From Acidobacteriota bacterium (GTDB taxonomy: Bacteria; Acidobacteriota; Terriglobia; Acidiferrales; UBA7541), in the NCBI GenBank assembly GCA_003224055.1, contig QHYE01000012.1, positions 1 to 42,732 on the forward strand: a stretch of DNA of 42,732 nt, written 5' to 3'. How positions within the stretch are numbered: position 1 is the stretch's first letter; each line of letters opens with the position of its first letter. Below, piece by piece: positions 9,589-32,156 of this stretch. A program made the translations under genes and the position numbers. Below the pieces are notes generated by a model. That model was given only the letters and a program-made list of their open reading frames with translations. It was not told where the DNA came from and searched no databases.

Positions 9589-9805
9589 TGTCCGGCTCCC
9601 AAAACCATCCATCCTAGTTTACTCTGTCTACTGAGGATTGGATGCGGAAGGGCTCCTGCTGGATTAGGTTAGATTTCACACTCAGCCTGGCTTCGTTCCT
9701 AGTCCCCGAGCCCTTGTCTGGAACCACCCGTTGTTGGAACGGTGTGTCTGACTGACGCATCATAGAAGCCGAAGCGTTTACTATTCACTCTGAGGGGCTA
9801 AGTTC

Positions 9806-13765: not shown

Positions 13766-14641
13766 TTACGCTTCGCGAAGGATGCGCACTAATTCTGCGG
13801 CGGCATGCGGCAGGCGCGCGCCGCGCCGTGAAACGAGATAGAGGTGGCGCGGCATGTTCAATTGCCGCACTTTCACTTCCTTCATCCAGCCGTGCTCGAG
13901 TTCCCATTGCACGCACATGCGCGGCACGATCGCCACGCCCATGCCCATTTGCACGAAGCGCTTGATGCTTTCAATCGTTGGCATTTCGATCGGCATGTTC
14001 AGCGCCGTGCGGTTTCGTGCAAAGAGCTCGATCACGCGCCGCCGGAACGGCGATTCCACAATGTGCGCGATAAAGTTTTCATCGCCGAGTTCCGCGACAT
14101 CCACTTCGCGCTTCTTCGCCAGGTGGTGCTTCAAAGGCACGACCAGCGTCAGCTCATCTTTCAGAATTTCCGTTGCCAGCAGCTGCGCGTCCCGCGGCAC
14201 AAAAGAAACCGCGCCGAGATCCAGCCGGTAGTTCAAGACCTCATGTGGAATATCCCGGGAGAACATGCGGTGCACGCGCACCTGCACTCCAGGATGCAAC
14301 TCGCGAAATCTTGCCAGCGCGGGAAGCAGTGCGTGGATCGAACTCTCGTTCACGCCAAGCGAAAGTTCACCCCGCTTCAAACCCTCCAATTCGCTGAGCC
14401 CTTTCTTGACCTCATCGCGCAGATTGATCAGGCGCTCGGCGTAGTCCTTGAGGAGGGTTCCCGCATCAGTGAGCCGAACCGGCCTCGCTCCGCGGACGAA
14501 GAGGGGCTGACCCAGCCCGTCCTCCAGCTTGCGAATGGCCAGGCTGATGGCCGGTTGCGTGCGATAGAGACGCTCCGCCGCCCGCGAGAAGCTGCCTTCC
14601 TTCGCCACCATTAGAAATACTTGGAGTTCGCCCAGATCCAC
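13766..14641 (-). CDS. LysR-family transcriptional regulator
   Basis: A 291-aa LysR regulator. The start is taken as GTG 14641 because GAGG lies six nt upstream and the product then begins VDLGELQVFLMVAKEGS, as LysR proteins do. The winged HTH covers about residues 1-60 (SFSRAAERLYRTQPAISLAIRKLEDGLGQPLFVRG), followed by the linker helix and a periplasmic-binding-like effector domain (LSLGVNESSIHALLPALARFRELHPGVQVRV, IKRFVQMGMGVAIVPR). It is transcribed divergently from leuA, with a 105-bp intergenic region carrying a perfect palindrome. The effector is unknown; control of leuAB by a leucine-pathway intermediate is a reasonable guess. Confidence 0.92.
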   Translation of the reverse strand: MDLGELQVFLMVAKEGSFSRAAERLYRTQPAISLAIRKLEDGLGQPLFVRGARPVRLTDAGTLLKDYAERLINLRDEVKKGLSELEGLKRGELSLGVNESSIHALLPALARFRELHPGVQVRVHRMFSRDIPHEVLNYRLDLGAVSFVPRDAQLLATEILKDELTLVVPLKHHLAKKREVDVAELGDENFIAHIVESPFRRRVIELFARNRTALNMPIEMPTIESIKRFVQMGMGVAIVPRMCVQWELEHGWMKEVKVRQLNMPRHLYLVSRRGARLPHAAAELVRILREA

Positions 14642-14649
14642 TGGTTCCT

Positions 14650-14661
14650 CTGTCCGGACAG
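14650..14661. promoter_or_regulatory. 12-bp perfect palindrome, candidate LysR operator
   Basis: CTGTCCGGACAG (14650-14661) lies between the divergent LysR gene and leuA, immediately upstream of the LysR start and about 86 bp before the leuA start. A direct echo, GACAGTATAA / GACAGTATTA, follows at 14657-14676. LysR proteins usually bind such dyads in the divergent region and repress themselves. Not tested. Confidence 0.45.
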
Positions 14662-14746
14662 TATAAGACAGTATTATCAAAAGCAGAATAAAGATAAATT
14701 GGACTACAGGCCCCCTCCCGTGCGTAACTACAGGGTGGGAGACCCT

Positions 14747-15940
14747 ATGGACGTCGTACGCATCTTTGACACTACGCTCCGTGACGGCGAGCAGTCGCCC
14801 GGCTTCTCGATGAACACGGAGGAGAAGATCCGCCTGGCACGCCAGCTAGCGGCCCTGAATGTAGATGTGATCGAAGCGGGCTTTCCGATTGCGTCGCGCG
14901 GCGACCTCGAAGCGGTCAAGAAAGTCGCGCAAGAAGTCCGCACCGTGCCCATCGCGGCGCTCGCTCGCGCAAAAAAACAGGACGTGGACGCGGCCGTTGA
15001 AGCCTTGAAGCCGGCGGCCTCCTCCCGGCTGCACGTTTTCCTTGCGACCTCCGATTTGCACCTTCGCGTAAAGCTCAATATGACCCGCGAACAGGCGCTT
15101 GAAGCCATTACCTCGATGGTGCGGCATGGCCGCCAGCACGTCGGCGAGGTCGAATTCTCCGCCGAAGACGCCGGACGAACCGACATCGGCTTTCTTTGCC
15201 AGGTGTGCCGTGCTGCCGTGGATGCCGGCGCGACAATCCTGAACCTGCCGGATACCGTGGGATACGCGGTTCCGGAAGAATACGGCGCGATGTTCACCAA
15301 GGTGCGTGAGTACCTCGGCGATCCTGATGGCGTAACGCTCAGCGCGCATTGTCATGACGACCTGGGCATGGCGGTCGCCAATTCGCTGGCAGCCGTTCGC
15401 GCGGGAGTCCGGCAGATCGAGTGCACCATCAACGGAATCGGCGAACGCGCCGGAAACGCATCGCTTGAAGAAGTGGTGGTCGCTCTCTCAGTGCGCAAGG
15501 AAAGCTTTGGCGTGACGACGGGAATCCGGCTCGAAGAGCTCTTCCCCACAAGTCGCATGCTCACGGAAATCACCGGCGCGCAGGTCGCCCCGAACAAAGC
15601 TATCGTGGGCGCCAATGCGTTCGCACACGAGGCGGGAATCCACCAGGATGGAATCATCAAGAACCCGCTGACGTACGAAATCATTTCGCCGCAGAGTGTC
15701 GGCGTCCCGGCGCGCTCGCTCGTTCTTGGAAAACATTCGGGCCGCAATGCGCTCCGCGAGGCGCTGCGCGATCTGGGTTTCGAGGCGAGCGATACGGAAC
15801 TGGCGGAGGTTTATACCCGCGTAACCGCGCTGGCCGATCAGTCTAAGCTGGTGCGCGCTCGGGACATCCTTGCGATCGCCCACGAGGTCATCCGCCGCCG
15901 TCCCGCGGTGATAGCGGCGGAATCGTCCTCCGCAGCCTGA
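14747..15940 (+). CDS. leuA: 2-isopropylmalate synthase, short form without regulatory domain
   Basis: The first enzyme of leucine synthesis, condensing acetyl-CoA with 2-ketoisovalerate. The start at ATG 14747 gives MDVVRIFDTTLRDGEQSPG, with the metal/catalytic segment DTTLRDGEQ at residues 8-16. HCHDDLG at 201-207 holds the metal-binding His pair, and NGIGERAGN at 229-237 is a family hallmark. The LeuA-type block HEAGIHQDGIIKNPLTYEI and the VLGKHSGRNALREAL subdomain are present. The protein stops at 397 aa, while typical bacterial LeuA is about 510. The C-terminal LeuA dimerisation/feedback domain is absent, so leucine inhibition may be lost. A homocitrate-synthase-like activity is an alternative, but the leuB partner favours LeuA. 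Confidence 0.9.
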   Translation: MDVVRIFDTTLRDGEQSPGFSMNTEEKIRLARQLAALNVDVIEAGFPIASRGDLEAVKKVAQEVRTVPIAALARAKKQDVDAAVEALKPAASSRLHVFLATSDLHLRVKLNMTREQALEAITSMVRHGRQHVGEVEFSAEDAGRTDIGFLCQVCRAAVDAGATILNLPDTVGYAVPEEYGAMFTKVREYLGDPDGVTLSAHCHDDLGMAVANSLAAVRAGVRQIECTINGIGERAGNASLEEVVVALSVRKESFGVTTGIRLEELFPTSRMLTEITGAQVAPNKAIVGANAFAHEAGIHQDGIIKNPLTYEIISPQSVGVPARSLVLGKHSGRNALREALRDLGFEASDTELAEVYTRVTALADQSKLVRARDILAIAHEVIRRRPAVIAAESSSAA

Positions 15941-16049
15941 CCTTTCCGTTGCTGAAAAGTAGTTTGTGACGGGGGAATCCTGCCGTGTTTCGCCTCTTAG
16001 CGTAGCGCCCACGGCTTGCACCAATTTTTGCATTTGCCCGGGGATCTTT

Positions 16050-17156
16050 ATGAAGAAGACCATCATCCTGTTGCCTGGAGACGGCATCGGCCCGGAAGTG
16101 TCGCGTGCCGCAGCCACGATCCTGCGCGAAACCGCGCACGAATTTAACCACGAGTTCGAGTTCCGTGAACTTCCGATCGGCGGCGCCGCCATTGATGCCG
16201 CGGGCACGCCTCTTCCGAACGAAACGCTTGACGCTTGCCGAAAGGCCGACGCCGTTATTCTAGGAGCCGTCGGCGGCCCGAAGTGGGATTCGTTGCCGGT
16301 AGGGAAGCGCCCGGAAAGCGGGCTGCTCGGTTTGCGGAAAGGACTGGGGCTGTACATCAACGTTCGTCCCGTGAAGCTCCTGGAACCGCTGAAGGGGATT
16401 TCGCCCCTCAAGCCAGATCGCCTCGGCGATCTAGACCTCGAGATTGTGCGTGAGCTCGCCGGCGGAATGTATTTCGGCGAACGTGGAAACGCTACAGAAA
16501 AAGGCGTGGAACGTGCCTGGGACACCGAGTCCTACTCGACGCCGGAAATCGAGCGCATCGCCACGTTTGCCTACAACCGTGCGGAGAATCGTTCGCGGCG
16601 GCTCTGTTCCGTGGACAAGGCCAACGTGCTCACCAGCTCTCAACTCTGGCGCCGCACCGTCACGGCGATGAGCACCGTGTTTTCTTCCGTGAAACTCGAG
16701 CACATGTATGTGGACAATACCGCCATGCAACTGACCTTGCGGCCCTCCCAGTTTGACGTGATGCTCACCTCCAACATGTTTGGCGACATTTTGAGCGACG
16801 CCGCGGCGGCCTTGGTCGGCTCTATCGGTCTGATCCCTTCGGCGAGTTTCGGTTCAACCGCGCCGCTGTTTGAACCCATTCATGGTTCGGCGCCTTCCCT
16901 CGTCGGAACCGACACCGCCAATCCCATCGGCTCGATTCTCAGCGCCACGATGATGCTCCGCGACGCTTTTGGGCTCTCGCTCGAAGCCGACTGGGTCGAG
17001 CAATCGCTCCTGCGCGTCCTCGCCGGCGGCTATCGCACACCGGACATCACGGAGCCTGGCGCTCGCGCCGTGGGCGGCTCGGTTTTCACCGAAATCCTTC
17101 GCGAAGAGATGCAGCGCACGCTCGAACATGCCGAGCGCTACGGTTGGGGCGTGTAG
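16050..17156 (+). CDS. leuB: 3-isopropylmalate dehydrogenase
   Basis: A 368-aa NAD-dependent beta-decarboxylating dehydrogenase that converts 3-isopropylmalate to 2-oxoisocaproate. The start at ATG 16050 gives MKKTIILLPGDGIGPEVS. Family marks are AVILGAVGGPKWD, LRKGLGLYINVRPVKL, ELAGGMYFG, the SVDKANVLTSSQLWRRTV block, MYVDNTAMQL with the catalytic aspartates, and FEPIHGSAPSLVGTDTANPIGSILSATMML, where the NAD-binding loop fits LeuB rather than isocitrate dehydrogenase. It lies 109 bp after leuA in the same direction. leuC and leuD are not in the window. Confidence 0.96.
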   Translation: MKKTIILLPGDGIGPEVSRAAATILRETAHEFNHEFEFRELPIGGAAIDAAGTPLPNETLDACRKADAVILGAVGGPKWDSLPVGKRPESGLLGLRKGLGLYINVRPVKLLEPLKGISPLKPDRLGDLDLEIVRELAGGMYFGERGNATEKGVERAWDTESYSTPEIERIATFAYNRAENRSRRLCSVDKANVLTSSQLWRRTVTAMSTVFSSVKLEHMYVDNTAMQLTLRPSQFDVMLTSNMFGDILSDAAAALVGSIGLIPSASFGSTAPLFEPIHGSAPSLVGTDTANPIGSILSATMMLRDAFGLSLEADWVEQSLLRVLAGGYRTPDITEPGARAVGGSVFTEILREEMQRTLEHAERYGWGV

Positions 17157-17442: not shown

Positions 17443-19821
17443 ATGGCCCATTCAGGCTCCAATTCGAACAGCATATTGCCCACCGCAGGGACCCGTGAGC
17501 CTGTCTATTGGAGAGTGGAAGGCTCGCTCCTGGAGCTGGGTGCGATGCGCCCGGTGGGTTTCTTCACGTGGAACTCGCAAAGTTTTTCAGAGCGCTGGGC
17601 GCGCCGCCTGGGCATGGCCGGGATGGCGCTCGCGCGGCCATTCGCCTACGCCGCCAACCGCACGTTTGCCACGCGTTTTCTGCACACCTTGCTCCGCGGC
17701 ATCAGCCGCGATCGGCTGGATCTGCTCGGTGAAGAATACTTCCACTACGTTCTAAGGCCGCAACTGCGCCGCGAGGCCGTCGAGAAACTGATCGAAGCGG
17801 TTCGCGATGGTGAGCGCATCGTGCTGGTCGGGCAGCTCCTCGAAAACATCCTTCGTCCCCTGGCCCATCATTTCGGGATCGACTCGTTCATTTCCAACCG
17901 CTTGGAATTTCGAGATGGTCAGGCCACCGGGAGATTGATGGATCCCATCGTCCGCCCGCGCGGGCCGTTCGCCTGGATTGCGAGCGGCGCCACCGACGGC
18001 CGTGTTTCGCGTGAGAGATTGCTCGGCCAGCTTGGCTGGACGGAGAAGCCGGAGCAACTCAAAGACGCCGTGCAGACCACCGCTCGTCCTGTTTCTAGCG
18101 AAGCCAAATCCGTTGCTCGATTCGGAGATGCGCCTCAAGTCCAGCGCCTTTTGGTGCGCGAAACCCTGGCGAACCGGCACCTGTTGCTCATTGGTGTAAC
18201 CGGATTCATCGGCAAAGTCTGGCTGGTGGACCTACTCGAGAATATTCCGAACATCGGCAAGATCACGCTCCTGATTCGCCGCAACCGCACCACTTCTGCG
18301 CAGCGCCGCTTCGAGAAAATTGTGGAAGAGTCTCCCACGTTCGACACGCTGCACGAGCGACACGGCCAAAAACTCGGCGCATTTCTCAGGGAAAAAGTGG
18401 AAGTCGTCGAAGGCGATGTGAGCGTGCCGGGCCTCGGTCTCGATGAAGCCACGCAAGCAAGGCTCGCGAAATCGCTCGACCTCATCGTGAACAGCGCCGG
18501 CCTCACGGACTTTAATCCCGATTTGCGCGAAGCTCTTTCTTCCAACGTGGATTCGGCGCTCCATTTGCTCGACTTTCTCCGGAAGTCCGATCACGCCGGA
18601 CTTATGCATCTTTCCACGTGCTACGTTGTCGGGATGCGCGACGGCCGCGTCACCGAAGAGTTGCAGGGAAACTACAACCCGGCGAACGGTCCGGATTTCG
18701 ACGCGGAGCGTGAAGTGGAATCCCTCCGCGAAACCATCCGCCGTGTCGAGGCCCGCGCCGAAAGCCCGGAGCTCACGAAGGCGCTTCGCCGCCAGGCGCT
18801 GGGCCGCGGCGGCGACGTTGCTTCCGCGCCGGCCGCGGAACTCGACGGTGTTTTGAAGCGTAACCGGGCGCGCTGGGCACGCAACCGGCTTGTTCGCGTT
18901 GGCATGCGCCGCGCCCAGCATCTCGGTTGGCCCAACACTTACACCTTCACGAAAAGCCTGGGCGAATCCATCCTCGCGCGCCGCGGCCGCGATCTCCCCA
19001 TCGCTATCGTCCGTCCCTCGATTGTCGAGAGCTCGGAGCGTTCGCCCTTCATCGGGTGGAACGAGGGCGTCAACACGTCCGGGCCGCTTTCCTATTTGCT
19101 TGGCACCAACTTCCGCCAGCTTCCTTCGAACGAACGCAAGTGCCTCGACGTCATTCCCGTGGACATGGTTTGCCGCGGCATGACGCTAATTACCGCCGGC
19201 GTGATTGCGCGTCGCCACGCCCGCATGTACCAGCTCGCGACTTCGGCCATCAATCCCGTCAACATGGGCCGCAGCATTGAACTCACCGGCCTGGCGCACC
19301 GCAAACACTACCGCACGACGCAGAGCGTGGACAGTTGGCTGAAAGTGAAATTCGAATCCATCCCGGTTTCGAAGCAACGCTACGAACAGCTTTCGATTCC
19401 AAGACAGAAAGCCGTCGTCTCCGGCATCAACCGCGTGGCCGTCACCCTTGGCATGAAAAAGCCGCCGCTTGCCCGGGCGGAGCGCGACCTCATTCGCGCG
19501 GAAAAGCTTATCGAGCTGTATGAGCCCTTTATCCTTCACAACGAGCATGTTTTCGAATGCGAAAACGCGCGGCTGCTTTCCGCGGCGCTGCCTCCGGAAG
19601 AACGTCTTGTTTTCGGCTTTGCGCCCGAATCCATCGATTGGTGGGACTACTGGATCAACGTACACATCCCGGCGTTGCGCCGCTGGTGCTATCCCCTGAT
19701 GGAAGGCCGACCTCTCGAATCGCGTGAGCCGCGCGCGCTCGATTGGTCCGCCGAACCCGCGCGCGAAGCGGTGCTCTCCAAAGCTGCAACGCCGACCGAT
19801 CCTTTATGGCGATCTTCCTAA
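17443..19821 (+). CDS. Fusion of a degenerate HAD-like domain with a fatty acyl-CoA/ACP reductase (FAR-type SDR)
   Basis: A 792-aa two-part protein. Residues about 20-200 align by eye with HAD-IB phosphatases (CicA/SerB-like), but the catalytic DxDGT is replaced by R24-V-E26-G-S, and the motif II Ser (usual VLVSxS) by VLVGQL. No GDxxxD motif III follows, so it is probably not a phosphatase. Residues about 240-620 are a male-sterility/FAR-type NAD(P)-binding reductase: GVTGFIG at 251-257, [22 protein letters not shown], and catalytic Y500 and K504 in YTFTK, followed by VRPSIVESS. The C-terminal part resembles the 'sterile' helical domain. It should reduce a fatty acyl thioester to aldehyde or alcohol. 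First gene of the cluster; no clear Shine-Dalgarno is visible. Confidence 0.85.
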
Positions 19822-20969
19822 CCGGCGCGACCGGCTATCTTGGCAGCTACCTCGTCGCCGGCCTCCTTACGGAGCACCGCGACACGCTGAATCTTCTGGT
19901 TCGCGCAAAAACTGAACAGGAGGCCCGCGAACGCCTCTGGACCTCGCTCCAACTGCACTTTGCCTTTCCCGAATTCCTCGAGTTCCTGAACACACGCGTT
20001 CGGATCTTCCGCGGCAATCTGACCAGCGATCTCTTCGGACTATCGGACGACGAATACCACGCGCTGGTGGATTCGACCGATTCGCTGATTCACTGCGCCG
20101 CGTCGCTCAACCGCAAATCCGAGAAGCAATGCCTGAACGTGAATCTGCGCGGCACACTGGAAGTCATTCAACTCGCACGCTGCGCGCAAAATCGCCACGG
20201 GCTGCGGCGCTATTCGCACGTCTCGACGGTCGCCGTCGCGGGGAAGCGGCAAAACGAAATTGTAACCGAAGATGCCGCCATTGACTGGTCACGCTCCGAT
20301 TATGATCCCTACGCGCGTACAAAAAAGTTCTGCGAGCACATGGCCAATCAACTCTTGGCTGACGTGCCGAAAACGATTTTCCGCCCGTCGATCATCCTCG
20401 GTGACAGCCGCCGAGGCGACACATCGCAATTCGACATGGTGCAGGCCTTCCACGTCCTGGCGCAGATGCCTGTTCTTCCCCTGCGCCCTGACGATAAAAT
20501 CGATATCGTGCCCGCAAACTACGTCGGCAAAGCGATCGTGAGTATTCACCAAAAAGACGCGCCCGCCCACGGCATCTATCATTTGTCCTCGGGGACCGGT
20601 TCACAGACCTACCACGAATTGACCGATGTCCTAGCGCAGGCGGGTGGCAGGATGCGGCCCACGTATTCGCCCTGGCTGGGCGGGACTTTTTCGCGCACCG
20701 TGAACTGGGCTGCGAATCGCACCGGCGCCATTGGCCACGGCGCCTCGCTCCTCAAAGTTTTCTGGCCGTACCTGGACTGGAACACGGTTTTTGACAATTC
20801 GCGCGTCGTCGCCGAACTGGGCGAGACGCCAGCAAAATTTTCGACCTACGCGCATGCCCTGTTGAAGTTCAGCCGTGAAAACAAGTTTCGTTATCCGGCA
20901 AAACCATGGCCATCGGGCGCGAGCGCGGACGTGGCGGCGAATCCCACCGCGAGAGGCGCCGGCTCATGA
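19806..20969 (+). CDS. Thioester-reductase-like SDR (NAD-binding 4/male-sterility fold)
   Basis: A 387-aa extended SDR starting inside the end of the preceding gene (16-bp overlap). The N-terminal nucleotide motif is TGATGYLG (6-13). Catalytic YARTK occurs in [20 protein letters not shown], preceded by the HVSTVAVAG active-site strand and followed by [21 protein letters not shown]. The family includes thioester reductase domains of carboxylic acid and peptide reductases and FAR enzymes. A second such enzyme next to a FAR suggests two reduction or dehydrogenation steps on the same acyl or carbonyl intermediate, but sugar-epimerase-like activity cannot be excluded. The C-terminal tail (about 25 aa) is low complexity. 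Confidence 0.85.
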
Positions 20970-22405
20970 CGGATTTTCTGCTCGTCGCCTGGGTTAGCGC
21001 ACTGATCGAGATCCGGCGCGTCGGCTGGATGCTGGGTCTTGGCAAGCGCTGGACTCCTGGCGAAAAACTCAAGCTGCTGTTTGCGGGCTACAATGGGACG
21101 CGCAACACGGGCAGCGACGTTCGCGTCCAAGAGATGCTGCGCCAGATTCGCCATGTTCTGGGCGCCGATAACGTTGACTTCAGCGTGATGACGCAGAGTT
21201 TCGACCGCACCAAGGGCTACTTCGAAGGTACCCGGCAGGTTTATCTTCCCGATGTGTACCCGCCGTTCCTCTTTCGCGACGTGCGCCGGAATCACGGCGT
21301 TATTGCGTGCGAAGGCTCGATGTTCAAGAGCAAATTCGCCAACGCGCTCGCGACGATGATGATCGGCTCGCTCGGGCTGGCTTCCGCGGAAAATAAACTT
21401 TCTCTCGCGTACGGCGGGGAAGCGGGCCACATGGACGGAATCATCCAATCCACGTGCGAACGCTACGTCCACGATTCGATGGTGATCACGCGCAATGTGG
21501 AATCGCAAACGCTGCTGAATTCGCTGGGAATTCCCACGGAGCTTGGCACGGATACCGCATGGACGTTTGAGCCGCACCCGCCCGAGTATGCACGCAAAGT
21601 TCTGCGCGAGTCCGGCTGGGATGAAAAAACGCCTATACTCGTCCTATGTCCAATCCATCCGTTCGTGTGGCCGGTGAGAGCATCCGTCGCAAAATATCTC
21701 GCACGCGTCACGACGGGCGCCTACAAAGACAGCCAATACCGCACCGTTTATTTTTTCGAATCCGGGCCGGAAGTGGATCGCAAATACCAGCACTACACTT
21801 CCGGATTTACCAACGCTACGAAAGCGTTCTTGCAGCGCCATCGTGTTTTTCCGATTCTGGTCGGCATGGAGCGGCTGGACGCCGTTGCGTGCCGCGATAT
21901 CGCCGCACAAATTCCGGGCACGCCGGTGTTCACTTCGGACGACTACGACATGTTCCAGCTCGTGTCGCTCCTGCGCGCGAGCTCTTACATGGTTTCTTCG
22001 CGTTACCACGGCATCGTCACCTGCATGCCCAGCCTGGTCGCCTCGGCTGGTGTCACCATGGACGAGCGCATCCGCAACCTGATGCGCGAGCGCGGCCATC
22101 AGCAATTCTTGCTTACCGTGGACGACCCCGATCTTGAGCCAAAGCTTCTCCAAGTCATGGAAACGCTGTTTACGGAAGCCGAATCCGTGCGCGAGGGCAT
22201 CGGCCGCACTGTCGTCCGCAATCTGAAGGTCATGGCGCGCATGGGAACGTATCTCGAGGACGCCATGCGCCGGACATACCCCGAATTCCCGCTACGCTCC
22301 GGAGTTCTTTCGTGGGAAGAATATCTGCCGCCGCTCGGCAGCAATTTGCTGCAGCTTGCCGGACGCTACGACTCTTCGCCGGTTGCGCTCGCCGCGGTTC
22401 GCTGA
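20966..22405 (+). CDS. Polysaccharide pyruvyl transferase-family protein
   Basis: A 479-aa protein whose start overlaps the previous stop as ATGA. It has a GT-B-like architecture of the pyruvyl transferase (CsaB/WcaK) family: N-terminal [22 protein letters not shown] with the family's N-x-GD/S loop, [44 protein letters not shown], and the hallmark [18 protein letters not shown] with H348. Known members move pyruvate from PEP onto sugar hydroxyls of cell-surface polymers. In a lipid cluster it might modify a glycolipid head group, which is an inference. It lies in the middle of the operon, 6 bp before the next gene. Confidence 0.88.
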
Positions 22406-22411
22406 CTTTTC

Positions 22412-24097
22412 ATGCCCAACTTTCTCGAAAATATTTTCGCGCAATTGAAACGAGCAGAGGGCCGCGTCGTTTTGCGGGAAATTCGCGGCGAACAATTTGT
22501 CAGCCTGACGGGAGGCGAGCTGCTGGATCAGGTGCAGCGTGTCCGCGGCTATTTACGCCGCTCCGGTTTGCAACCGGGAGATCGCTGCGCGCTCCTCGCG
22601 GCGAATTCCGTCCGTTGGGCTGCTTTTGACGTGGCGCTGATGGCCGAAGGCGCCATCGTGGTGCCGCTCTATTCGCGCCAGGCGCCTGCCGAGCTCGCTG
22701 CCATGATGAAGGATTGCCAGCCACGATTTCTCTTTGTAGGTGATGCCGCTTTTGGGGAAGGTATCGCTCAGGCTTGGCCGGAAGCTCTGCCTCGCGTTTT
22801 GTTCGAGGATGCTCTGCAGCAGCCTGCGTCGCCGGGATTGGTTCCGAACACTCCCAATCCGCGGGGGGATTCGGACCTTGTCACCATCATCTACACCTCA
22901 GGCACGTCGGGGGAGCCTAAGGGGGTTTGCCTCAACGTCGGGAACATCACGCACATGATTTCCTGCGCCACCGAGCGGCTTGATCAATTGATGGGCGAAA
23001 CGCACGAGCCAGACCGTGTTTTCCACTATCTTCCGTTCAATTTTGCTGCTTCGTGGATCGTGCTTCTCACCTACCTCACGCGCGAGTCGGTTCTTACGCT
23101 CTCCACGGATCTCAATAGGCTTACCGACGAAATCCGGCTGGCCTCTCCGCACTATTTTCTGAATGTTCCCACGCTGCTGGAACGCGTGCGCCGCGGCGTG
23201 GAGGAAGCGCTATCGAAGCGCCCAGCCATGATCCGTTCGCTTTTTGAAAAGGCGCGCGACGCCTGGCAGCGGCTGCACGTGGGCCGCGGTCGCGCGCTGG
23301 ATGCTCTTTGGCTCGCCATCGGCCGAAAAGTTATTTTCGGAAAAATCAAAGAACGTTTCGGCGGGCATCTTCGTACGCTGATTTGTGGCTCCGCGCCTCT
23401 TTCGCCGGAGACCCAGCAGTTTTTCCTGACGCTGGGCATTCCCGTACTGCAAGGCTACGGACTCACGGAAACCACGGGCATCTGCACGTTGGACGATCCC
23501 CGCTTGCCCGTTGAACCGGGTTGCGTCGGCACTGCAATTTCCGGAATTGAAATGAAAATTTCCGAGAACGAAGAAATAGTTGTGCGTGGCCCGCACATTT
23601 TTCCGGGATATTGGAACAGGCCGGAAGAGACGGCGCGCGTGTTGCAAGACGGCTGGTTCCACACGGGTGATCAGGGCGAAGTAAACGTGCGCGGAAATTG
23701 GCGAATCAGCGGGCGCATCAAAAACCTGATTATTCTGAATTCCGGCCACAACATCGCCCCGGAACCGGTCGAAGAAAAAATCGCGCGGCTTCTTCCGGCA
23801 GTGCAGCAAGTCGTAGTTGTCGGCAATGGGCGCGGGTATCTCTGTGCGCTGGTCACCGGCCGCGTCGAACGCGCCGGCGTCCAGGCCGCGCTGGATGCCG
23901 TGAATCCCGAGCTGCCGCATTACCGCCAGATCCGCAATTTCACTGTGATTCCCGAAGGCTTCACCATCGAGAACGGCCTGCTCACCGTGAACGGCAAACT
24001 TCGCCGCTCCGCCATCAATGCGCGCTATGCTTCGGAAATTAACGCCATGTACGATGTCAAGGGAGTCCGCGAAGCAGCCAGCGGAACACTCGCATGA
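22412..24097 (+). CDS. AMP-forming fatty acyl-CoA/acyl-ACP ligase (first copy)
   Basis: A 561-aa ANL-superfamily enzyme. The phosphate loop is YTSGTSGEPKG (161-171). The A5-type motif GYGLTETTGICT, the A7/A8 hinge block GWFHTGDQGEVNVRGNWRISGRIKNLIILNSGHNIAPEPVEE and a C-terminal catalytic lysine K529 in VNGKLRRS are all intact. The PLYSRQAP and HYLPFNF segments are typical of long-chain FadD-like proteins. It activates a fatty acid with ATP, giving acyl-AMP and then a thioester on CoA or, given the ACP gene 0.9 kb downstream, possibly on that ACP. It starts 6 bp after the pyruvyl transferase-like gene. Confidence 0.92.
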   Translation: MPNFLENIFAQLKRAEGRVVLREIRGEQFVSLTGGELLDQVQRVRGYLRRSGLQPGDRCALLAANSVRWAAFDVALMAEGAIVVPLYSRQAPAELAAMMKDCQPRFLFVGDAAFGEGIAQAWPEALPRVLFEDALQQPASPGLVPNTPNPRGDSDLVTIIYTSGTSGEPKGVCLNVGNITHMISCATERLDQLMGETHEPDRVFHYLPFNFAASWIVLLTYLTRESVLTLSTDLNRLTDEIRLASPHYFLNVPTLLERVRRGVEEALSKRPAMIRSLFEKARDAWQRLHVGRGRALDALWLAIGRKVIFGKIKERFGGHLRTLICGSAPLSPETQQFFLTLGIPVLQGYGLTETTGICTLDDPRLPVEPGCVGTAISGIEMKISENEEIVVRGPHIFPGYWNRPEETARVLQDGWFHTGDQGEVNVRGNWRISGRIKNLIILNSGHNIAPEPVEEKIARLLPAVQQVVVVGNGRGYLCALVTGRVERAGVQAALDAVNPELPHYRQIRNFTVIPEGFTIENGLLTVNGKLRRSAINARYASEINAMYDVKGVREAASGTLA

Positions 24098-24897
24098 AGA
24101 GTTTTGCCGGCAAGACGCTGCGTTGGGAATGGCGCGAAGGGGTGATTGAGTTGACGCTCGATCACGCACCCGCCAATGAAATTGGTTCGGCAATGCTCGC
24201 GGAGCTTGAACAATTTGTCGCTGCATCGGGCGCGCTTGCGCCGGAGACTTCCGTCTGCATCATTTCGAGTGCGCGCAAGTCTGTTTTTTCGGCGGGCGCG
24301 GATTTACGCGAACTGTACCGCGGTGCGGCGCCGCTTCCGGAGAAGGAGCGCCTTGCGGGTATTCGCAATTTTCTGGAACGCATCCATGTAGTACTGAACG
24401 CTCTTGATGCTGCGCCCTTCGTCATCATCGCGGCTGTGCACGGCGTTTGTTTTGGCGGCGGACTCGAACTCGCGCTCGCTTGCGATATCATCATCGCGGA
24501 CAAGATGGCGCGCTTTGCGTTTCCCGAATTGCGGCTGGGGCTCATCCCCGGATTCGGCGGGATCCCGCGCCTGAAACGCGATCTTGGCAATGCTTTCGTG
24601 CGAGATTTGCTTTTTACGGGTCGTACGGTCAACGCGACTCGCGCGCAAGCCGTCGGGCTCGTGGCGCAACTTGCCGGCGAAGGCCAAGCTCTCCGCGTCG
24701 CACGCTCGACCGCCGCTCAAATCACAAAATTTGACGCCGTTACACGCGCCGCCGCGAAAAAATTCATCAAGCCTGTTCCCCACGATGAATTGCGCCGCGA
24801 AATCGATCTTTTTTGCGAGCTCTTCGCGCGGCCCGCTGTCATGGCCGCTCTCAAGAAATTCATCGAAGATTCCGGACCCATGCCGTACCTACCGTAA
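24094..24897 (+). CDS. Enoyl-CoA hydratase/isomerase (crotonase) family protein
   Basis: A 267-aa crotonase overlapping the ligase stop by 4 bp (ATGA). The oxyanion-hole segment VFSAGADLREL and the GVCFGGGLELALACD block are present. Both positions used as catalytic glutamates in hydratases are Glu: E125 in GGGLE and E145 in FPELRLGLIPGFGG. Hydration of a 2-enoyl thioester or double-bond isomerisation is therefore possible. The partner dehydrogenases and thiolase of a full beta-oxidation set are missing from the cluster, so a single tailoring step on a dedicated acyl chain is more likely. Confidence 0.9.
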   Translation: MKSFAGKTLRWEWREGVIELTLDHAPANEIGSAMLAELEQFVAASGALAPETSVCIISSARKSVFSAGADLRELYRGAAPLPEKERLAGIRNFLERIHVVLNALDAAPFVIIAAVHGVCFGGGLELALACDIIIADKMARFAFPELRLGLIPGFGGIPRLKRDLGNAFVRDLLFTGRTVNATRAQAVGLVAQLAGEGQALRVARSTAAQITKFDAVTRAAAKKFIKPVPHDELRREIDLFCELFARPAVMAALKKFIEDSGPMPYLP

Positions 24898-24959
24898 TCT
24901 TGGAAAGCTGGCTCGTTCAATTTTCTTTCCTGTCGCAGGAGTGCTAAATTTACCTGTCC

Positions 24960-25202
24960 ATGCGCACACTGGAACAAACGACGCAGGAAGTCCTCGACCT
25001 GGCAGCGAAGCATTTTCAGCTGCCCGCAGGTTCGCTCGCGCCCGCCGATGATTTCTTCAAGAAGCTGGGCATCGACAGCCTTCAGACACTGGAGATGCTT
25101 TCGCGCATCGAAAATCATTTCGGCATCGAGCTGCCGGACTACGAAGTCCAGGGCGTCAGCGACTTCAGGACCCTGGCTGAGCGGATTCAATCTCGCCTGT
25201 AA
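24960..25202 (+). CDS. Dedicated acyl carrier protein
   Basis: An 80-aa ACP. The phosphopantetheine site is S40 in [14 protein letters not shown]; helix II and the acidic surface ([15 protein letters not shown]) follow the usual pattern. It lies 62 bp after the crotonase gene and overlaps the next ligase start by one base (TAATG), so it is translationally linked to that ligase. It is divergent from the housekeeping AcpP (GxDSLDTVEL), which suggests a specialised carrier for the acyl chain handled by this cluster. Confidence 0.93.
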
Positions 25203-26914
25203 TGCTTGACCTTTCCAAATATCAGTCCATCGGCCAGGCGCTGAAGGATGCGCTGGACCAATTTGCGGACGAAGTGTGCTTGATCGAAGCGGACCGCGAA
25301 CGCGAGAAGGAACGCCTGACGTATCGCGACTTCAAGGAATGCGCGCACCCGCTCGCCAGAGCTTTGCAAGACGCCGGTTTCACGGCGGGCGACCGGGCCA
25401 GCATCATCATGACCAACCAGTCCAAGTGGCTGATTTCGGCCTACGCCATTTTTTTTGCGGGCGGCACGCTGGTTCCGCTCGACTACAAGCTCACTCCCGA
25501 CGAGCAATGGCAGCTTCTCAAGCATTCCGGCGCCAGCGTGCTCATCACGGAATATCCCATCTGGCGGCAGCTCAGCGCTTCTGTTGGGCGCGTGGCAGCG
25601 GCAAACGTCCGTACGGTCCTCGTGACCGAGGCTCCAGCAAATGCGGAACTCTCGGGCGCACTGCGCTGGGAAGATTTTCACGGCGCGGGCGAGCCGAGAT
25701 TCGTTTCGCGCGTACGCAAGGACACGGCTTGCATCGTGTACTCCTCTGGAACCGGCGGCCGCCCCAAGGGCTGCATGATGACGCACGAGAATTATTTGGA
25801 GCAGTGCGTCGCGCTGACCTCGATCTATCCCTTCTGGCCTGGCGTGCGCTACCTCAGCATCTTGCCGACGAACCACGCGATTGATTTTATGGTGGGATTT
25901 TTCGGGCCGTTCACCTGCGGCGCGGCAGTCGTGCATCTTCGAACATTGCGTCCCGAATACGTGCGCGAGGCTTTTCCGAAGTACAAAATCACTTACGTCA
26001 GTCTCGTTCCGCTGGTTTTGAAAAATCTGCAAAAAGGTTTGCAGGCGCGGTTCGATGCGTTGCCACCGGCGAAACGGAAGATTTTCAATGCGCTTGTGGC
26101 AATCAACAAAGCGCTGACGAAAAGCAAGTCGCGGCCCGGCATCAGCCGCCGGTTACTCAAACAGGTGCATGAAGCCTTTGGCGGCGAACTTCGTGCCATC
26201 ATCGTCGGCGGCGCGTTTACAGAACCGCAGACCTTGCAATTTTTCTACGATCTGGGAATTCCCGTCGCGAACGGTTACGGCCTCACGGAGGCGGGCACGG
26301 CCATCACCGTCAATGACTTGAAACCATTTCGCGCCGACACCGTCGGCAAGCCACTACCTGGCATGGAAGTGCGCATCATGAATCCTGCCGCGGACGGGGT
26401 CGGAGAAGTCTCTGTGCGCAGCAAGACGGTCATGTCCGGCTACCTCAGCGACCCGGAGCTCACGGCCGAAACTATCGTTGACGCCTGGCTGATGACCGGC
26501 GACCTGGGCCGCTTCGACGAAACCGGCCACTTGCTGCTGAGCGGCCGCAAGAAGAACATGGTCGTTACCGAAGAAGGGAAGAACATTTATCCCGAAGACG
26601 TTGAGGCGGTCTTCGAAACCCTTCCCGTGAAGGAATTCTGCGTATTCGCCGCCAATTACATCTGGCCGAAACGTTCGATGACGGGAGAAAGGCTTGTGCT
26701 CGTCATCCATCTCGATCCGGGCCAGCAATACGGCGAAGAGCTCCGGCAGGACATCAGCGCGCGTAACAATCGCCTGCTAAACTACAAGCGCATCCACGGG
26801 GTCGTTGTCCTGGACGAAGACTTTCCGCGGACGGCTTCCTTGAAAATCAAAAGGAATGTTCTGGCGGAACGTCTCGCGAGTCTAGAGGGTGCATCGGCGA
26901 TTCTGCCCTTGTGA
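25202..26914 (+). CDS. AMP-forming acyl ligase (second copy), likely acyl-ACP loading enzyme
   Basis: A 570-aa ANL enzyme starting on the last base of the ACP stop codon. The phosphate loop is [11 protein letters not shown] (180-190), slightly off the consensus [60 protein letters not shown] and the C-terminal lysine K548 in TASLKIKRN are present, though the usual Gly before this Lys is Leu. It is clearly distinct from the first ligase rather than a recent copy. Tight coupling to the ACP gene suggests it loads a fatty acid onto that ACP. Direct demonstration is lacking. Confidence 0.92.
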
Positions 26915-26976
26915 AAGCGTGCTGAAAACGATTAGGTGCAGCAGGAGTTAGCAGTTCCAGTCTGCCCGAGAGACAA

Positions 26977-27876
26977 ATGGATCGCTTTTTCGCCATCGTG
27001 AACCCCGCCGCCGGTGGCGGCCGTTCCGCAAAACTCGCCGGCCCCGCGCTTGCGAGCCTGCGAGAGAAGGGATTGCGCATTGACGTCATCGCATCCACCG
27101 GCAAGGGCCACGCGGTGCAGCTCGCGCGCGAGGCTTACGATCAGGGTTACCGGCGTTTTCTTGCCGTTGGCGGCGACGGCACGGCGCACGAAATCCTCAA
27201 CGGCGTTTTTGCCGGCCGCAAGCCAGTTGGACGGATTGCGCTTGGTTTCCTTCCGCTCGGCACTGGTAATTCCTTCCTGCGCGATTTCTCAAAGGATGGC
27301 GCGGAAGCTTCGATGCGAGCCCTGCTCGAGGATCGCAAGCGTTCCATCGATTTAATTCGTCTCACGCACTCCGGCGGGGAAGTCTATTCCTTCAATCTCT
27401 TAAGCATTGGTTTCACTGCCGATGTCGCCGCGCTGACCAATCGCATGTTCAAGCCGCTCGGCCACCTTGGTTATCTGCTTGGAGTGTTCGTCCGCGTCGT
27501 GCAGCTGCGCCGGCGCTCCTTCGCCCTTCGCTGCGATCAGGATCAGGAATGGAACGAGCGGCGCTCGCTTTTCCTGACTTTCAATAACAGCAAGTACACC
27601 GGCGGCACGATGCTCATCGCGCCGCACGCGGATCCCGCCGATGGCCACATCGAATTTGTTCAGTGGGGACCGATCGGCCGGTTGGGTTTGCTCCGCATGC
27701 TGCCGCGGCTGTATGACGGCACGCACATCGAACACGCGCTTGCCTCGCACCGGGCCGTGCGCCACGTCGAATTCAAGTTCGGCTCACCACTCGACGTCAT
27801 GATCGATGGTGAAGTGGCTACGCTGGATTGCTGCTCGCTCGATATTCTGCCGGCCGCAGTGGACGTCTATATATGA
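26977..27876 (+). CDS. Diacylglycerol kinase-family lipid kinase (YegS/BmrU-like)
   Basis: A 299-aa DAGK-catalytic protein. The signatures are FAIVNPAAGGGRS at the start, the nucleotide motif GGDGT at 65-69 (LAVGGDGTAHEILNGV), LPLGTGNSFLRDF around 93-103, and later FNNSKYTGGTMLIAPHADPADGHIEF and VMIDGEVA. Family members phosphorylate diacylglycerol, phosphatidylglycerol, sphingoid bases or related alcohols with ATP. In this cluster it could phosphorylate an alkyl- or acylglycerol before acylation by the next gene product. It lies 62 bp after the second ligase and its stop overlaps the next start by 4 bp. Confidence 0.9.
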   Translation: MDRFFAIVNPAAGGGRSAKLAGPALASLREKGLRIDVIASTGKGHAVQLAREAYDQGYRRFLAVGGDGTAHEILNGVFAGRKPVGRIALGFLPLGTGNSFLRDFSKDGAEASMRALLEDRKRSIDLIRLTHSGGEVYSFNLLSIGFTADVAALTNRMFKPLGHLGYLLGVFVRVVQLRRRSFALRCDQDQEWNERRSLFLTFNNSKYTGGTMLIAPHADPADGHIEFVQWGPIGRLGLLRMLPRLYDGTHIEHALASHRAVRHVEFKFGSPLDVMIDGEVATLDCCSLDILPAAVDVYI

Positions 27877-28613
27877 AGAAGAGCTGGCTGGCGTTGCGCA
27901 GCGCGATTCTCTGGATCTTGAGCGCCCTGCATTTTTTCATTCTTGCGCCGCTGCTCGTCTTTCTCGGAATTTTTCTGGATCCCCACAAGCACGATTGGTT
28001 GCAACGTACGTTCTGCCGCCGCATTGTGTTTCTTTCGGGCGCCAGCATGGAGGTCCGCCACTCGCCCGGGTTCGACCCCAGCCGGACCTCTTTCTTCGTG
28101 TCCAATCACGTCAATCTTTTCGATCCTTTCATGCTCTACTGCGCCATTCCGCAGTTCGTCCGTGGCTGGGAGCTGGAATCGCATTTCAAGATTCCTGCAT
28201 ACGGCTGGTTGATGAAGCGCTTCGGGAATGTTCCTGTGCCGGACATTCGTCGCCCTTCGGACCTGAAGCGCATGTGGCGGCTGACGCAGGACGCCATTGA
28301 CGGCGGCACCAGCCTGATCATTTTTGCCGAAGCCAAGCGTACACGCGACGGCCACGTGGATCAGTTCCAGGACGGCGGCTTTCGCGTTGCGCAGCAACTC
28401 GGCGTTCCCATCGTGCCCGTGAGCCTGGTGGGATCCTTCCAGCATCACCGCACGGGTCATTGGATGCTTTGGCCGGCACAAGTAACCGTCATTCTGCACG
28501 ACACGATTGACACCAAAGGGCTTACCAAAGCCGATGTGCCGACGCTGCGTGATCGAGTGCGCGAAATCATCGCCGCGCCGATGGAAGAACAGTTGAAGCG
28601 AGTGGGGAGCTGA
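27873..28613 (+). CDS. PlsC-type 1-acylglycerol-3-phosphate acyltransferase
   Basis: A 246-aa membrane-associated acyltransferase. A hydrophobic segment at 10-34 anchors it. Motif I NHVNLFD (N78-H79-x4-D84) is intact. Motif III is AEAKRT (E153) instead of the usual PEGTRS, with Ala for Pro and Ala for Gly. Motif IV is VPIVPVSLVG. The length is normal for PlsC. It should move an acyl group from ACP or CoA to a lysophospholipid-like acceptor; the altered motif III hints at a non-standard acceptor. It is the last gene of the cluster and overlaps the kinase gene by ATGA. Confidence 0.9.
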   Translation: MKKSWLALRSAILWILSALHFFILAPLLVFLGIFLDPHKHDWLQRTFCRRIVFLSGASMEVRHSPGFDPSRTSFFVSNHVNLFDPFMLYCAIPQFVRGWELESHFKIPAYGWLMKRFGNVPVPDIRRPSDLKRMWRLTQDAIDGGTSLIIFAEAKRTRDGHVDQFQDGGFRVAQQLGVPIVPVSLVGSFQHHRTGHWMLWPAQVTVILHDTIDTKGLTKADVPTLRDRVREIIAAPMEEQLKRVGS

Positions 28614-29534: not shown

Positions 29535-29752
29535 AGCTGTATCAGTGTCTCAAATGACGGCCAGTTTCGCGAAATGGCCCGGCGCTTTCCAAATCTGCGG
29601 CATCCTACACTACCTTTGCTGCATGCGGCAAACAACGAGTGACACAATGCCAGCCAAAATGGAAGATTTGAATGGCTCGTATCTGGCAATTTTTCTTGAC
29701 GGCATGTCTCCTTCAGCCTACAGTCTGCAAGTTTAAGGAACTTTCATCGACC

Positions 29753-30409
29753 ATGATCAACGAACTGAGCCGTCGTACGTTTCTCCTGCGCGCAGGCACG
29801 GGCATCAGCGCCGCCTGGATCTCCGCAAACTGGCCTGCGCTACTTTCTGCCTCAAAACACGCGCATAGCGCCGCTGTGGCAGCCAACCCAGCGAAGCTGG
29901 AATTCTTCACGCCCGAGCAGGCGACCGAGATTGACGCCATCTCCGCGCGCATCATTCCCACGGATGAGCTGCCCGGAGCACACGAAGCTGGCGTCTTGTA
30001 TTTCATCGATCGGGGACTCGCCACGTTCAGCGCGGATGACCAAAAAACGTATCGGGAGGGTTTGCCGGAGTTGCAGGCGAGAGTAACTGAGATGTTTCCG
30101 AACGCAGCCAAATTCTCCTCCTTGACGCTCCAACAGCAGGACGAGGTCTTGCATTCCTTGGATGAAAATGCGCCGTCCCCCCAGCGGCCCTTCCGGGCAA
30201 GTCCCGGCGCCCAGAGTTTCTTCGAGACCATGCGGCAGCACACCATAGCCGGATTCCTGATCGATCCCGACTTCGGCGGCAACGACAGTGGAGCGGGATG
30301 GAAAGTCATCGGCCGCGAACGCGAACACATGTTTCAAGCGCCGTTCGGTTTCTACGACAGGGATTATGCAGGCTGGCAACCCATGCCGAAAGAGGCAGAC
30401 AAGAAATGA
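29753..30409 (+). CDS. Gluconate 2-dehydrogenase subunit 3-family protein (Tat-exported small subunit)
   Basis: A 218-aa protein. The start ATG 29753 puts a twin-arginine signal at the N terminus (SRRTFLLRAGTGISAAW). The mature part follows the small (gamma/hitch-hiker) subunit of membrane-bound FAD sugar dehydrogenases: FFTPEQATEIDAISARIIPTDE, GVLYFIDRGL, then GFLIDPDFGGNDSGAGWKVIGRE near the end. The folded flavoprotein without its own signal is usually carried through Tat by this partner. It overlaps the GMC gene by ATGA. Confidence 0.92.
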   Translation: MINELSRRTFLLRAGTGISAAWISANWPALLSASKHAHSAAVAANPAKLEFFTPEQATEIDAISARIIPTDELPGAHEAGVLYFIDRGLATFSADDQKTYREGLPELQARVTEMFPNAAKFSSLTLQQQDEVLHSLDENAPSPQRPFRASPGAQSFFETMRQHTIAGFLIDPDFGGNDSGAGWKVIGREREHMFQAPFGFYDRDYAGWQPMPKEADKK

Positions 30410-32070
30410 TGGTCGACCAGCCCAAGTACAAAACTTCCTATGAAGTCGATTTTGTGATCATAGGCTCCGGCGCTGCCGGCGGAATCCTCGCCAAGGAACT
30501 TTCGACCAACGGCTTTCGCGTGGTTGTCCTGGAGCAAGGGCCCTATCTGACGGAAACAGATTTCACGCACAACGAAGTCGAAACCCTGGCTCAAGACAAG
30601 CTCACCAACCATCCGAGGCTCCAGCCAAACACCTTCCGCAAAACGTCCAGCGAAAAGGCCAAACCGCAGCGTGCCGTCCTTTATGGCCGGTGCGTCGGCG
30701 GCACCAGCGTACACTTCACCGCGAATTTCTGGCGCTTCCACGAGATTGATTTCATCGAGCGCAGCAAGATTGGGCCCATTCCCGGCACGACCTTTGCAGA
30801 TTGGCCCATCACCTACGCCGACCTCGAGCCTTACTACACCAAAGTAGAGTGGGAAATCGGGGTCTCTGGCCTGGCCGGCGCCAGCCCTTTTGATCCGCCG
30901 CGCTCCAAGCCTTACCCGATGCCGCCGCTGCCGGTGAAATCTTCCGGCGTGATTTTCGAACGCGCGGCCCGGAAGCTGGGCTGGCATCCGTTCCCCGCGC
31001 CGATGGCGATCCTGTCGCAGCCGCGCCCCGGACGAAGCGCTTGCATCAATTGCGGTTTCTGTCTGGCATTTGGTTGCGAGGTCGGCGCTAAATCGAGCTC
31101 GCTGGCGACCGCTATTCGAATGGCGGAGAAGACCGGCCGGTGCGAAATTCGCGCCAATTCCTATGTCCATCGCATCGAAACGGATGCGAATGGCCGCGCC
31201 ATCGGCGCGGTCTACTTCGACGAGAAACGCAACACGCACTTGCAGAAAGCCAAGGCGGTCGTAGTTTGCGCAAATGGCGCGGAGACTCCGCGCCTGCTCT
31301 TGCTCTCCGCCAACAAGCAATTCCCCAATGGCCTCGCCAACTCCAGCGGGTTCGTCGGCAGGAATCTTATGCTGAACAGCGGCGGTGTTACCGTCGGGGT
31401 GTTCGAACATCCGCTCAACGACTACAAAGGCTTTGCTGTGAGCCGCGTGCTGCACGATTTCTACGAGCTTGATCCGCAGAAGGTCGGCTTCTACGGCGGT
31501 GGCGGACTGGATGCGCGATTCGATCTCACGCCCATCAGCTTTGCGTTAAACGCTCTACCCCCCGGGACGCCCCGCTGGGGGAAGGACTTCAAGAGCGCCC
31601 TTGCCCACTATTTCAATCGCACCATGGAGATTTTCTGCCACGGCACTTCGTTGCCTGTCGAAAACAACAGCTTTTCTCTCGATCCAGATTTGAAAGACGC
31701 TTGGGGTCTGCCGGCGCTTCGCATGACGTACAAGGATCATCCCGACGATCTGAAACTGTGGCGTTGGCAAAACGAGCGGGCGCGCGAGCTGTTGGATGCT
31801 GCCGGTGCGCAAAAGCAGTGGTCCCAGCCCGTTGGTGAATCACAATTCGCCGTGCACCTCCTTGGCACTTGCCGCATGGGGAACGATCCGAAGACTTCCG
31901 TCATCAATGGCGATCACCGCGCGCATGACGTTGAGAATCTTTTCCTTTGCGATGGCAGCAGCCTGGTAACCTCCGGCCGCGGCCAGCCCACCATGACCAT
32001 CGAGGCGCTGGCATTTCGAGCCGGCGAGCGCATCACCGCGCTCGCGAAGCGCGGCGAGATCGGCGCCTGA
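30406..32070 (+). CDS. GMC-family FAD oxidoreductase (catalytic subunit)
   Basis: A 554-aa flavoprotein. The FAD-binding motif is IIGSGAAGGILAKEL (GxGxxG at 20-25). The GMC block around YGRCVGGTSVHFTANFWR binds the flavin. A cysteine cluster C213-x2-C216-x2-C219-x4-C224 (around INCGFCLAFGC) matches the position of the iron-sulfur cysteines of FAD glucose dehydrogenase alpha subunits. The C-terminal active-site segment has H484 in HLLGTCRMG and SGRGQPTMTIEAL, where Asn/His is usually seen at the Q. It has no signal of its own and should be co-exported with the preceding Tat subunit. The substrate is probably a sugar or polyol. Confidence 0.93.
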   Translation: MMVDQPKYKTSYEVDFVIIGSGAAGGILAKELSTNGFRVVVLEQGPYLTETDFTHNEVETLAQDKLTNHPRLQPNTFRKTSSEKAKPQRAVLYGRCVGGTSVHFTANFWRFHEIDFIERSKIGPIPGTTFADWPITYADLEPYYTKVEWEIGVSGLAGASPFDPPRSKPYPMPPLPVKSSGVIFERAARKLGWHPFPAPMAILSQPRPGRSACINCGFCLAFGCEVGAKSSSLATAIRMAEKTGRCEIRANSYVHRIETDANGRAIGAVYFDEKRNTHLQKAKAVVVCANGAETPRLLLLSANKQFPNGLANSSGFVGRNLMLNSGGVTVGVFEHPLNDYKGFAVSRVLHDFYELDPQKVGFYGGGGLDARFDLTPISFALNALPPGTPRWGKDFKSALAHYFNRTMEIFCHGTSLPVENNSFSLDPDLKDAWGLPALRMTYKDHPDDLKLWRWQNERARELLDAAGAQKQWSQPVGESQFAVHLLGTCRMGNDPKTSVINGDHRAHDVENLFLCDGSSLVTSGRGQPTMTIEALAFRAGERITALAKRGEIGA

Positions 32071-32156
32071 TCTTCGTTCGGCCCGCAGCATTGAACCGGG
32101 TTCTTCGAAACCGTGCCACCCGGGCGCTCGTCACATCTCCTGCGAGGATTCCATCC

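Follow-up and report, generated by a model that had tools for sequence, protein, structure and literature searches.

The elb operon and a related cluster in an Acidobacteriota contig

The elb operon of Myxococcus xanthus (elbA-elbE; MIBiG BGC0000871) encodes, according to the available text of two reports, a HAD protein, a fatty acyl reductase (FAR), a ligase, a carrier, a PlsC-type acyltransferase and NAD-dependent short-chain dehydrogenases/reductases (SDRs) (PMC9131029, PMC9426513). As far as the accessible portions of the first report go, an insertion in elbD strongly lowers the ether lipids, and the ligase and carrier activities of ElbD were demonstrated in vitro (PMC9131029). Excerpts of two other papers place elb in some subdivision-4 Acidobacteria, report that 15 of 97 metagenome-assembled genomes of Acidobacteria from the Black Sea carry elbD homologues and describe Solibacter as lacking ElbD (PMC11868695, PMC10087280); elbD-type clusters are also attributed to sponge Acidobacteriota in the text available from PMC9426513. 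Here we compare these systems with a cluster at 17443-28613 of a 42,732-nucleotide window, the whole stretch analysed (QHYE01000012.1, positions 1-42,732, from Acidobacteriota bacterium GCA_003224055.1). The cluster encodes proteins of the kinds listed above, is linked to elb by the kinship of its HAD and FAR domains, and probably works like elb. We tentatively propose, as a nearly even call, that it is an elb-like system with separate genes, which would make alkyl (ether) glycerophospholipids without an alkyl-dihydroxyacetone phosphate (alkyl-DHAP) synthase.

The nine co-directional genes of the preliminary description were all recovered as open reading frames (ORFs) at 17443-28613, on the + strand throughout and tightly packed. 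With likely starts chosen to fit relatives (17443, 19806, 20966, 22412, 24094, 24960, 25202, 26977 and 27873), the eight junctions measure, in order, -16, -4, +6, -4, +62, -1, +62 and -4 bp, with overlaps at five of the eight. Pfam and NCBIfam agreed with the domains listed earlier, PF04230 (PS_pyruv_trans) in P0003 being the weak point with a marginal pass (25.6 bits, gathering cut-off 25.3), and a PF01066 match in P0010 bore out the facing CDP-alcohol phosphatidyltransferase. The features are as follows.

P0001, 17443..19821, +, degenerate HAD domain (about 20-183) fused to a FAR (about 234-766); Pfam HAD, NAD_binding_4 and Sterile
P0002, 19806..20969, +, thioester-reductase-like SDR; NAD_binding_4 and TIGR01746; ORF listed from 19743
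P0003, 20966..22405, +, GT-B-fold protein, pyruvyltransferase-like by sequence; PF04230 (marginal) and TIGR03609; ORF listed from 20906
P0004, 22412..24097, +, acyl ligase ACS1; AMP-binding and AMP-binding_C_3
P0005, 24094..24897, +, crotonase/enoyl hydratase-like protein; ECH_1
P0006, 24960..25202, +, acyl carrier protein with Ser40 in GIDS; PP-binding
P0007, 25202..26914, +, acyl ligase ACS2; AMP-binding; on the ElbD side of the ligase tree
P0008, 26977..27876, +, YegS-like lipid kinase; DAGK_cat and YegS_C
P0009, 27873..28613, +, PlsC-type acyltransferase, lineage-restricted beside the core; PF01553; ORF listed from 27828
P0010, 28917..29534, -, CDP-alcohol phosphotransferase facing the cluster, lineage-restricted; PF01066 and NF040950

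Relationship to the elb-type loci of other Acidobacteriota

A search of 297 Acidobacteriota genomes with P0001 (E<=1e-10) returned matches from 48, comprising nine fused forms, 32 long-frame proteins in which the FAR lies inside a frame ≥1,400 residues long, three standalone FARs, one frame of 1,174 residues and three weak SDR matches. When the best three HAD candidates per genome were scored, separate HAD genes resembling the first ~180 residues of P0001 were found in at least 23 genomes (20 of the 32 long-frame and all three standalone-FAR genomes), on the same contig as the FAR in 21 of the 23. Every HAD match at E<=1e-10 came from a genome whose reductase is ElbD-type or standalone, and on these matches the pairing of HAD with FAR is the most specific link between the cluster and elb. 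The best solved-structure match of the P0001 reductase was the FAR 7eoz (E 2e-44). The cluster had been described as uncharacterised and unlike known ether-lipid sets; the first does not hold in full and the second is not supported, its HAD and FAR being related to those of elb ether-lipid clusters. Among titles and abstracts of the elb literature, subscription papers lying outside this scope, we found no published description of the cluster itself.

Seventeen elb-type loci were fetched, 14 with a long protein (L170-L178, L181-L185) and three with a standalone FAR (L179, L180, L186). In other Acidobacteriota an ElbB-like HAD is encoded together with an ElbD of ~1,450 residues, which combines reductase, ligase, carrier and PlsC, and often with a LarA-like protein. 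The one ElbD-type protein run against Pfam contains domains for all four of these functions, which is the ElbD architecture described for M. xanthus. By BLAST, FAR and ligases were matched in all 14 long-protein loci, P0009 in eight and the carrier in two, and a lipid kinase is present in eight of the 17 loci. The three elb-type SDRs scanned are HpnA-like, and P0002 is thioester-reductase-like. A gene for a LarA-like, nickel-pincer nucleotide (NPN)-dependent hydroxyacid isomerase stands near the HAD and ElbD genes at L172:8504-10099 and in 12 more loci. This gene was found in 13 of the 17 loci at ≥60% identity to the first one, and in one more at 35%; one such protein scored 842 bits (cut-off 740). 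Identity of P0003 with ElbC, which is LarA-like in the Acidobacteriota examined, was considered and rejected (hhalign probability 0.1%).

The window's cluster thus shares with the multidomain elb clusters an ElbB-like HAD, FAR, ligase, carrier and PlsC, and with some of them a lipid kinase, whereas they have FAR, ligase, carrier and PlsC fused as ElbD, carry a LarA-like gene in most cases and give no match to P0003 or the crotonase. The standalone-FAR loci resemble it in having a FAR unfused to a ligase and a HAD and lipid kinase nearby, but they have a LarA-like gene (61-62%), keep the HAD as a separate gene and show no ligase match in the stretches fetched. Against M. xanthus elb, compared by description only, the cluster differs in having its domains as separate genes and a degenerate, FAR-fused HAD, in showing no ElbC counterpart, and in adding a GT-B protein, a second ligase, a crotonase and a lipid kinase. 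Judged by its gene content, it is a variant of elb rather than an elb member, having no fused ElbD, active HAD or LarA-like gene. The picture of an ElbD taken apart would fit it by function and arrangement.

ACS2 was nearer than ACS1 to ElbD-type ligases by BLAST (e.g. E 1e-74 versus 1e-45) and in the ligase tree, unlike ACS1, it lay on the side of ElbD (SH-aLRT 99); a grouping of ACS1 with ElbD was rejected (p-AU 0.0003 and, with added ligases, 1e-5). The first trees, in which the FadD rows had been picked by similarity to ACS1, joined ACS2 to ElbD at 93/99 and SH-aLRT 100. Descent of ACS2 from the ElbD ligase was nevertheless not retained as a conclusion: with three ACS2-similar ligases added, ACS2 and ElbD no longer formed a branch by themselves (p-AU 0.071 for keeping the two together). 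Two of the three are FAR-less ligase-carrier-PlsC fusions, from genomes that also carry the window's cluster (G275, G023); such fusion stretches lie at L206:370-3108 and L208:1005-3968. In the window's own genome, L198 holds a ligase-carrier-PlsC fusion, L194 a stretch with ligase and PlsC, and L195 a protein of the order MFS-PlsC-ligase.

Conservation of gene order

Scanning genome contigs with P0003 gave 256 relatives. The best 80 (62-90% identity) were kept and joined by eight further loci; without the two duplicates among the latter, the comparison covers 86 distinct loci. Loci were picked by P0003 similarity, and clusters lacking P0003 are invisible to this survey. All of the best 80 relatives carry Acidobacteria lineage labels except L058, a contig labelled Betaproteobacteria that has the whole cluster at 75-91% identity and is probably from a mislabelled Acidobacteria bin.

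Order and strand of the first four genes were conserved in 80 of 80 loci in which all were found (six incomplete), of the first five in 74 of 74 complete loci (12 incomplete), and of the eight core genes in 57 of 57 distinct complete loci (29 incomplete). A seven-gene count over the 86 loci gave 62 kept, 22 incomplete and two not kept (L072, L104); both of these lie near a contig end, and their "ACS2" match (25-32%) is a cross-match that falls on ACS1 or overlaps it. Most incomplete loci stop at a contig end. The carrier is absent from L020, L024, L063 and L065 despite 2-7.5 kb of room (about 7 kb in the last three), and L027 has no kinase; a nearby contig end does not account for L024, L063, L065 and L027, nor perhaps for L020. 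In the genomes of L020 (G132) and L024 (G062), carrier, ACS2, kinase and PlsC stand together elsewhere. Since the second half sits together apart from the first in these genomes, the cluster seems to consist of two modules, HAD-FAR-SDR-P0003-ACS1-crotonase and carrier-ACS2-kinase(-PlsC). The reading of the genes in the preliminary description as a lipid set with activation, carrier and acyl reduction is supported, and the set is conserved in the 57 complete loci. Scattering of the homologues among relatives is largely ruled out, apart from the displaced second half in the two genomes.

PlsC stands beside the cluster in 23 of 30 near-group loci and only five of 58 far loci, and the CDP-alcohol gene in 21 of 30 and only two of 58; because both are kept in the near group and rare in far loci, the conserved core comprises eight genes. 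Presence counts for ACS2 (55 of 58 far, 29 of 30 near) are inflated by cross-matches to ACS1. For seven proteins, pairwise distances are correlated (0.77-0.96 over 39 rows, 0.74-0.95 over 23 far rows), species history included.

Far loci continue after the kinase with genes for VKOR, an esterase, GT87 and one protein without a Pfam match. These were considered as core members and rejected; they do not stand beside near-group clusters. By our own ORF reading, the space between crotonase and carrier varies by locus and holds HtrA-like proteases, a LuxR-type regulator, hydrolases or KAS III. HtrA-like protease gene pairs occupy it in L032, L036, L037, L044, L048, L054 and L057, several with a LuxR-type regulator.

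Distribution

Of the 399 genomes sampled from the window's class, 114 have P0003 at E<=1e-50; the figures are 79 of 89 for its family (our own count among the rows listed, sorted by kinship) and 36 of 36 for its genus, own genome included. Across the phylum, 11 of 297 genomes gave a match at E<=0.001, which reached ≥58% identity in nine of them. A P0003 paralogue at 36-37% identity lies at 9496-10818 (-) of L028 (G062:C148), with no other cluster gene within 20 kb.

Many carriers of the cluster are uncultured soil and peat Acidobacteria. Palaeotemperature and pH proxies rest on branched tetraethers and other soil ether lipids, whose makers are, to our knowledge, mostly unknown. Judging from gene content, Acidobacteria with the cluster may have a route to ether membrane lipids that was possibly overlooked when genes were searched for earlier. 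The cluster offers a defined, testable gene set, and its separate genes would allow ElbD chemistry to be studied enzyme by enzyme.

Active sites and the fold of P0003

Motif residues of the FAR, SDR, crotonase, ligases, kinase, PlsC and CDP-alcohol enzyme are conserved with few exceptions; E125 and E145 of the crotonase P0005 occur in 78 of 78 rows, and the HX4D motif of P0009 in 26 of 26. P0010 is nearest to archaetidyl- and phosphatidyl-inositol-phosphate synthases (NF040950, 170.5 bits, cut-off 180). The nearest solved chain to P0002 is MxaA.

The HAD domain of P0001 is the exception. Its motif I site reads WRVEGS, with R24, E26 and G27 invariant in 71 rows, and the motif I Asp is present in 12 of 12 ElbB-like HADs aligned (e.g. 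YDLEGTL). The C-terminal SDS-type motif is absent from the window protein and seven aligned relatives. Given the loss of this motif and of the motif I Asp, the domain is very probably not a phosphatase.

P0003 had been called pyruvyl transferase-like, an assignment that is weakened here. Beyond its marginal Pfam pass, it aligns with TIGR03609 (CsaB) over 57-402 (E 5e-14) and conserves R196 and an SxRxH motif (R366, H368), which we take to be features of the pyruvyltransferase superfamily. It differs from CsaB-type enzymes in falling far below the family cut-off (52.3 bits versus 213.1) and in sitting in a lipid gene cluster. No PDB chain was matched by sequence at E<=1. The structure model (pLDDT 87.3, pTM 0.87) has a GT-B fold; its best Foldseek match is WaaA (E 5.6e-7) and its top VIA matches are 8ahe_A (Z 22.3, root-mean-square deviation (rmsd) 3.5, 329 aligned) and 7vz6_C, a UDP-GlcNAc 2-epimerase (Z 22.2, rmsd 4.0, 330 aligned), with PimA at Z 21.1 (rmsd 3.5, 323 aligned) and MGD1 at Z 20.1. 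A pyruvyltransferase was not among the 50 structure matches listed for the model, which excludes nothing. A role in pyruvylation is weakly supported, and we take P0003 as a putative head-group transferase.

Proposed pathway

Other lipid routes were looked for in the window's own assembly (95.6% complete), with 14 genomes as the control set for DUF2229, WS/DGAT and CarF. PlsY is present together with six PlsC-family matches, P0009 included, which suggests that ordinary phospholipids are made independently of the cluster. The lack of an alkyl-DHAP synthase (AGPS), noted earlier for the cluster, extends to the genome, where none was recognised and the FAD-oxidase_C matches look by eye like GlcD, GlcE or D-lactate dehydrogenase. 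The DUF2229 reductase, which we take to be a marker of the PlsA/Ger route, gave no match in the genome and was found in four of the 14 controls, including T. maritima. The AGPS/FAR1/GNPAT and PlsA/Ger routes would share the proposed product class with the cluster, and they differ from it in that no AGPS was recognised and DUF2229 was not matched here. WS/DGAT and CarF family proteins were likewise not matched in the genome; since neither found a match in any of the 14 controls, both searches are uninformative and carry no weight.

In an elb-like pathway, ACS2 (P0007) would activate a fatty acid and load it onto the carrier P0006, and the thioester reductase P0002 and FAR P0001 would reduce the chain to an aldehyde and/or alcohol. 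A further step would join the reduced chain to a backbone of glycerol. The lipid kinase P0008 would phosphorylate the (alkyl)glycerol, and PlsC (P0009, or another PlsC where it is non-adjacent) would acylate sn-2. The GT-B-fold P0003, with P0010 in the window's lineage, would build the head group, while ACS1 and the crotonase (P0004, P0005) may supply or modify a second chain. We infer each of these reactions in this organism, as well as the product and its ether bond.

Several observations weigh against this proposal. No ether-forming enzyme was recognised, and P0002 is closer to reductase domains of nonribosomal peptide and polyketide synthases (NRPS/PKS). The motif I Asp of the HAD is replaced by Arg in 71 of 71 P0001-family rows. 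The reductase part of P0001 (about 234-766) is only 30-38% identical to ElbD-type N-termini, compared without an outside FAR as outgroup. The branch uniting ACS2, ElbD and the fusions has a support of only 62, with a standalone ligase on the same side; as ligase-carrier-PlsC fusions without a FAR exist, this combination is not peculiar to elb, and an origin of ACS2, carrier and PlsC by the splitting of an ElbD is not established. P0003 and the crotonase have no match in the 17 elb-type loci, and the LarA-like gene is absent from the window's cluster (no Lar_N match among the nine proteins). In the available text on M. xanthus, the FAR and acyltransferase activities of ElbD could not be demonstrated and fatty alcohols were undetected (PMC9131029), and Pontiella has ElbD homologues yet, in the accessible part of that report, no ether lipids were detected (PMC11868695).

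Alternative products

A modified lipid that has no ether bond, such as a glycolipid, is unlikely, and of the alternatives it survives best. Here P0003 would glycosylate or pyruvylate a fatty alcohol or aldehyde made by the FAR and SDR, giving an alkyl glycoside or a similar product, and the kinase and PlsC would act on a side product. P0003 is present in every locus (by selection) and has a fold also found in lipid glycosyltransferases, PimA and MGD1 among them, and PlsC is non-adjacent in most far loci, all of which would suit such a product; yet the lipid kinase and the near-group PlsC and CDP-alcohol enzyme point to a glycerophospholipid, and there is no other glycosyltransferase among the nine genes.

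Improbable, in our view, is that this elb-like system, with its pseudo-HAD-FAR fusion, represents a third way for bacteria to make ether lipids that needs neither AGPS nor Ger, with P0003 preparing or installing a C3 or head unit. P0003 is present in place of the LarA-like hydroxyacid isomerase of other clusters. If true, subgroup-2 Acidobacteria and many others of the class Terriglobia from soil and peat would be producers of ether lipids, possibly of branched glycerol dialkyl glycerol tetraethers (brGDGTs), and searches with whole ElbD would undercount producers.

Plasmalogens (vinyl ethers) or a sphingolipid-like product instead of alkyl ethers are quite improbable: elb is involved in both alkyl and vinyl ether lipids in M. 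xanthus, as far as the available text on it goes, but no gene resembling serine palmitoyltransferase is among the nine, and the missing CarF match counts for nothing given its control. Formation of fatty alcohols or wax esters for storage or surface esters is very improbable, since it would account for the reductases, including the structural match of P0001 to a solved FAR, but would leave the dedicated carrier, lipid kinase and GT-B protein superfluous, and the genome has no WS/DGAT match (weak, with the control at 0/14).

Adjacent genes

Directly upstream, at 14621-17156 and on the same strand as the cluster, lie LeuA/homocitrate-synthase-like and LeuB-like genes. They were considered as part of the pathway and rejected: they are present in 23 of 30 near loci but in only one and two of the 58 far loci. 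Downstream, at 29672-33314, a separate set on the + strand comprises genes for gluconate-2-dehydrogenase subunit 3, a GMC oxidoreductase and a cytochrome-c-like protein.

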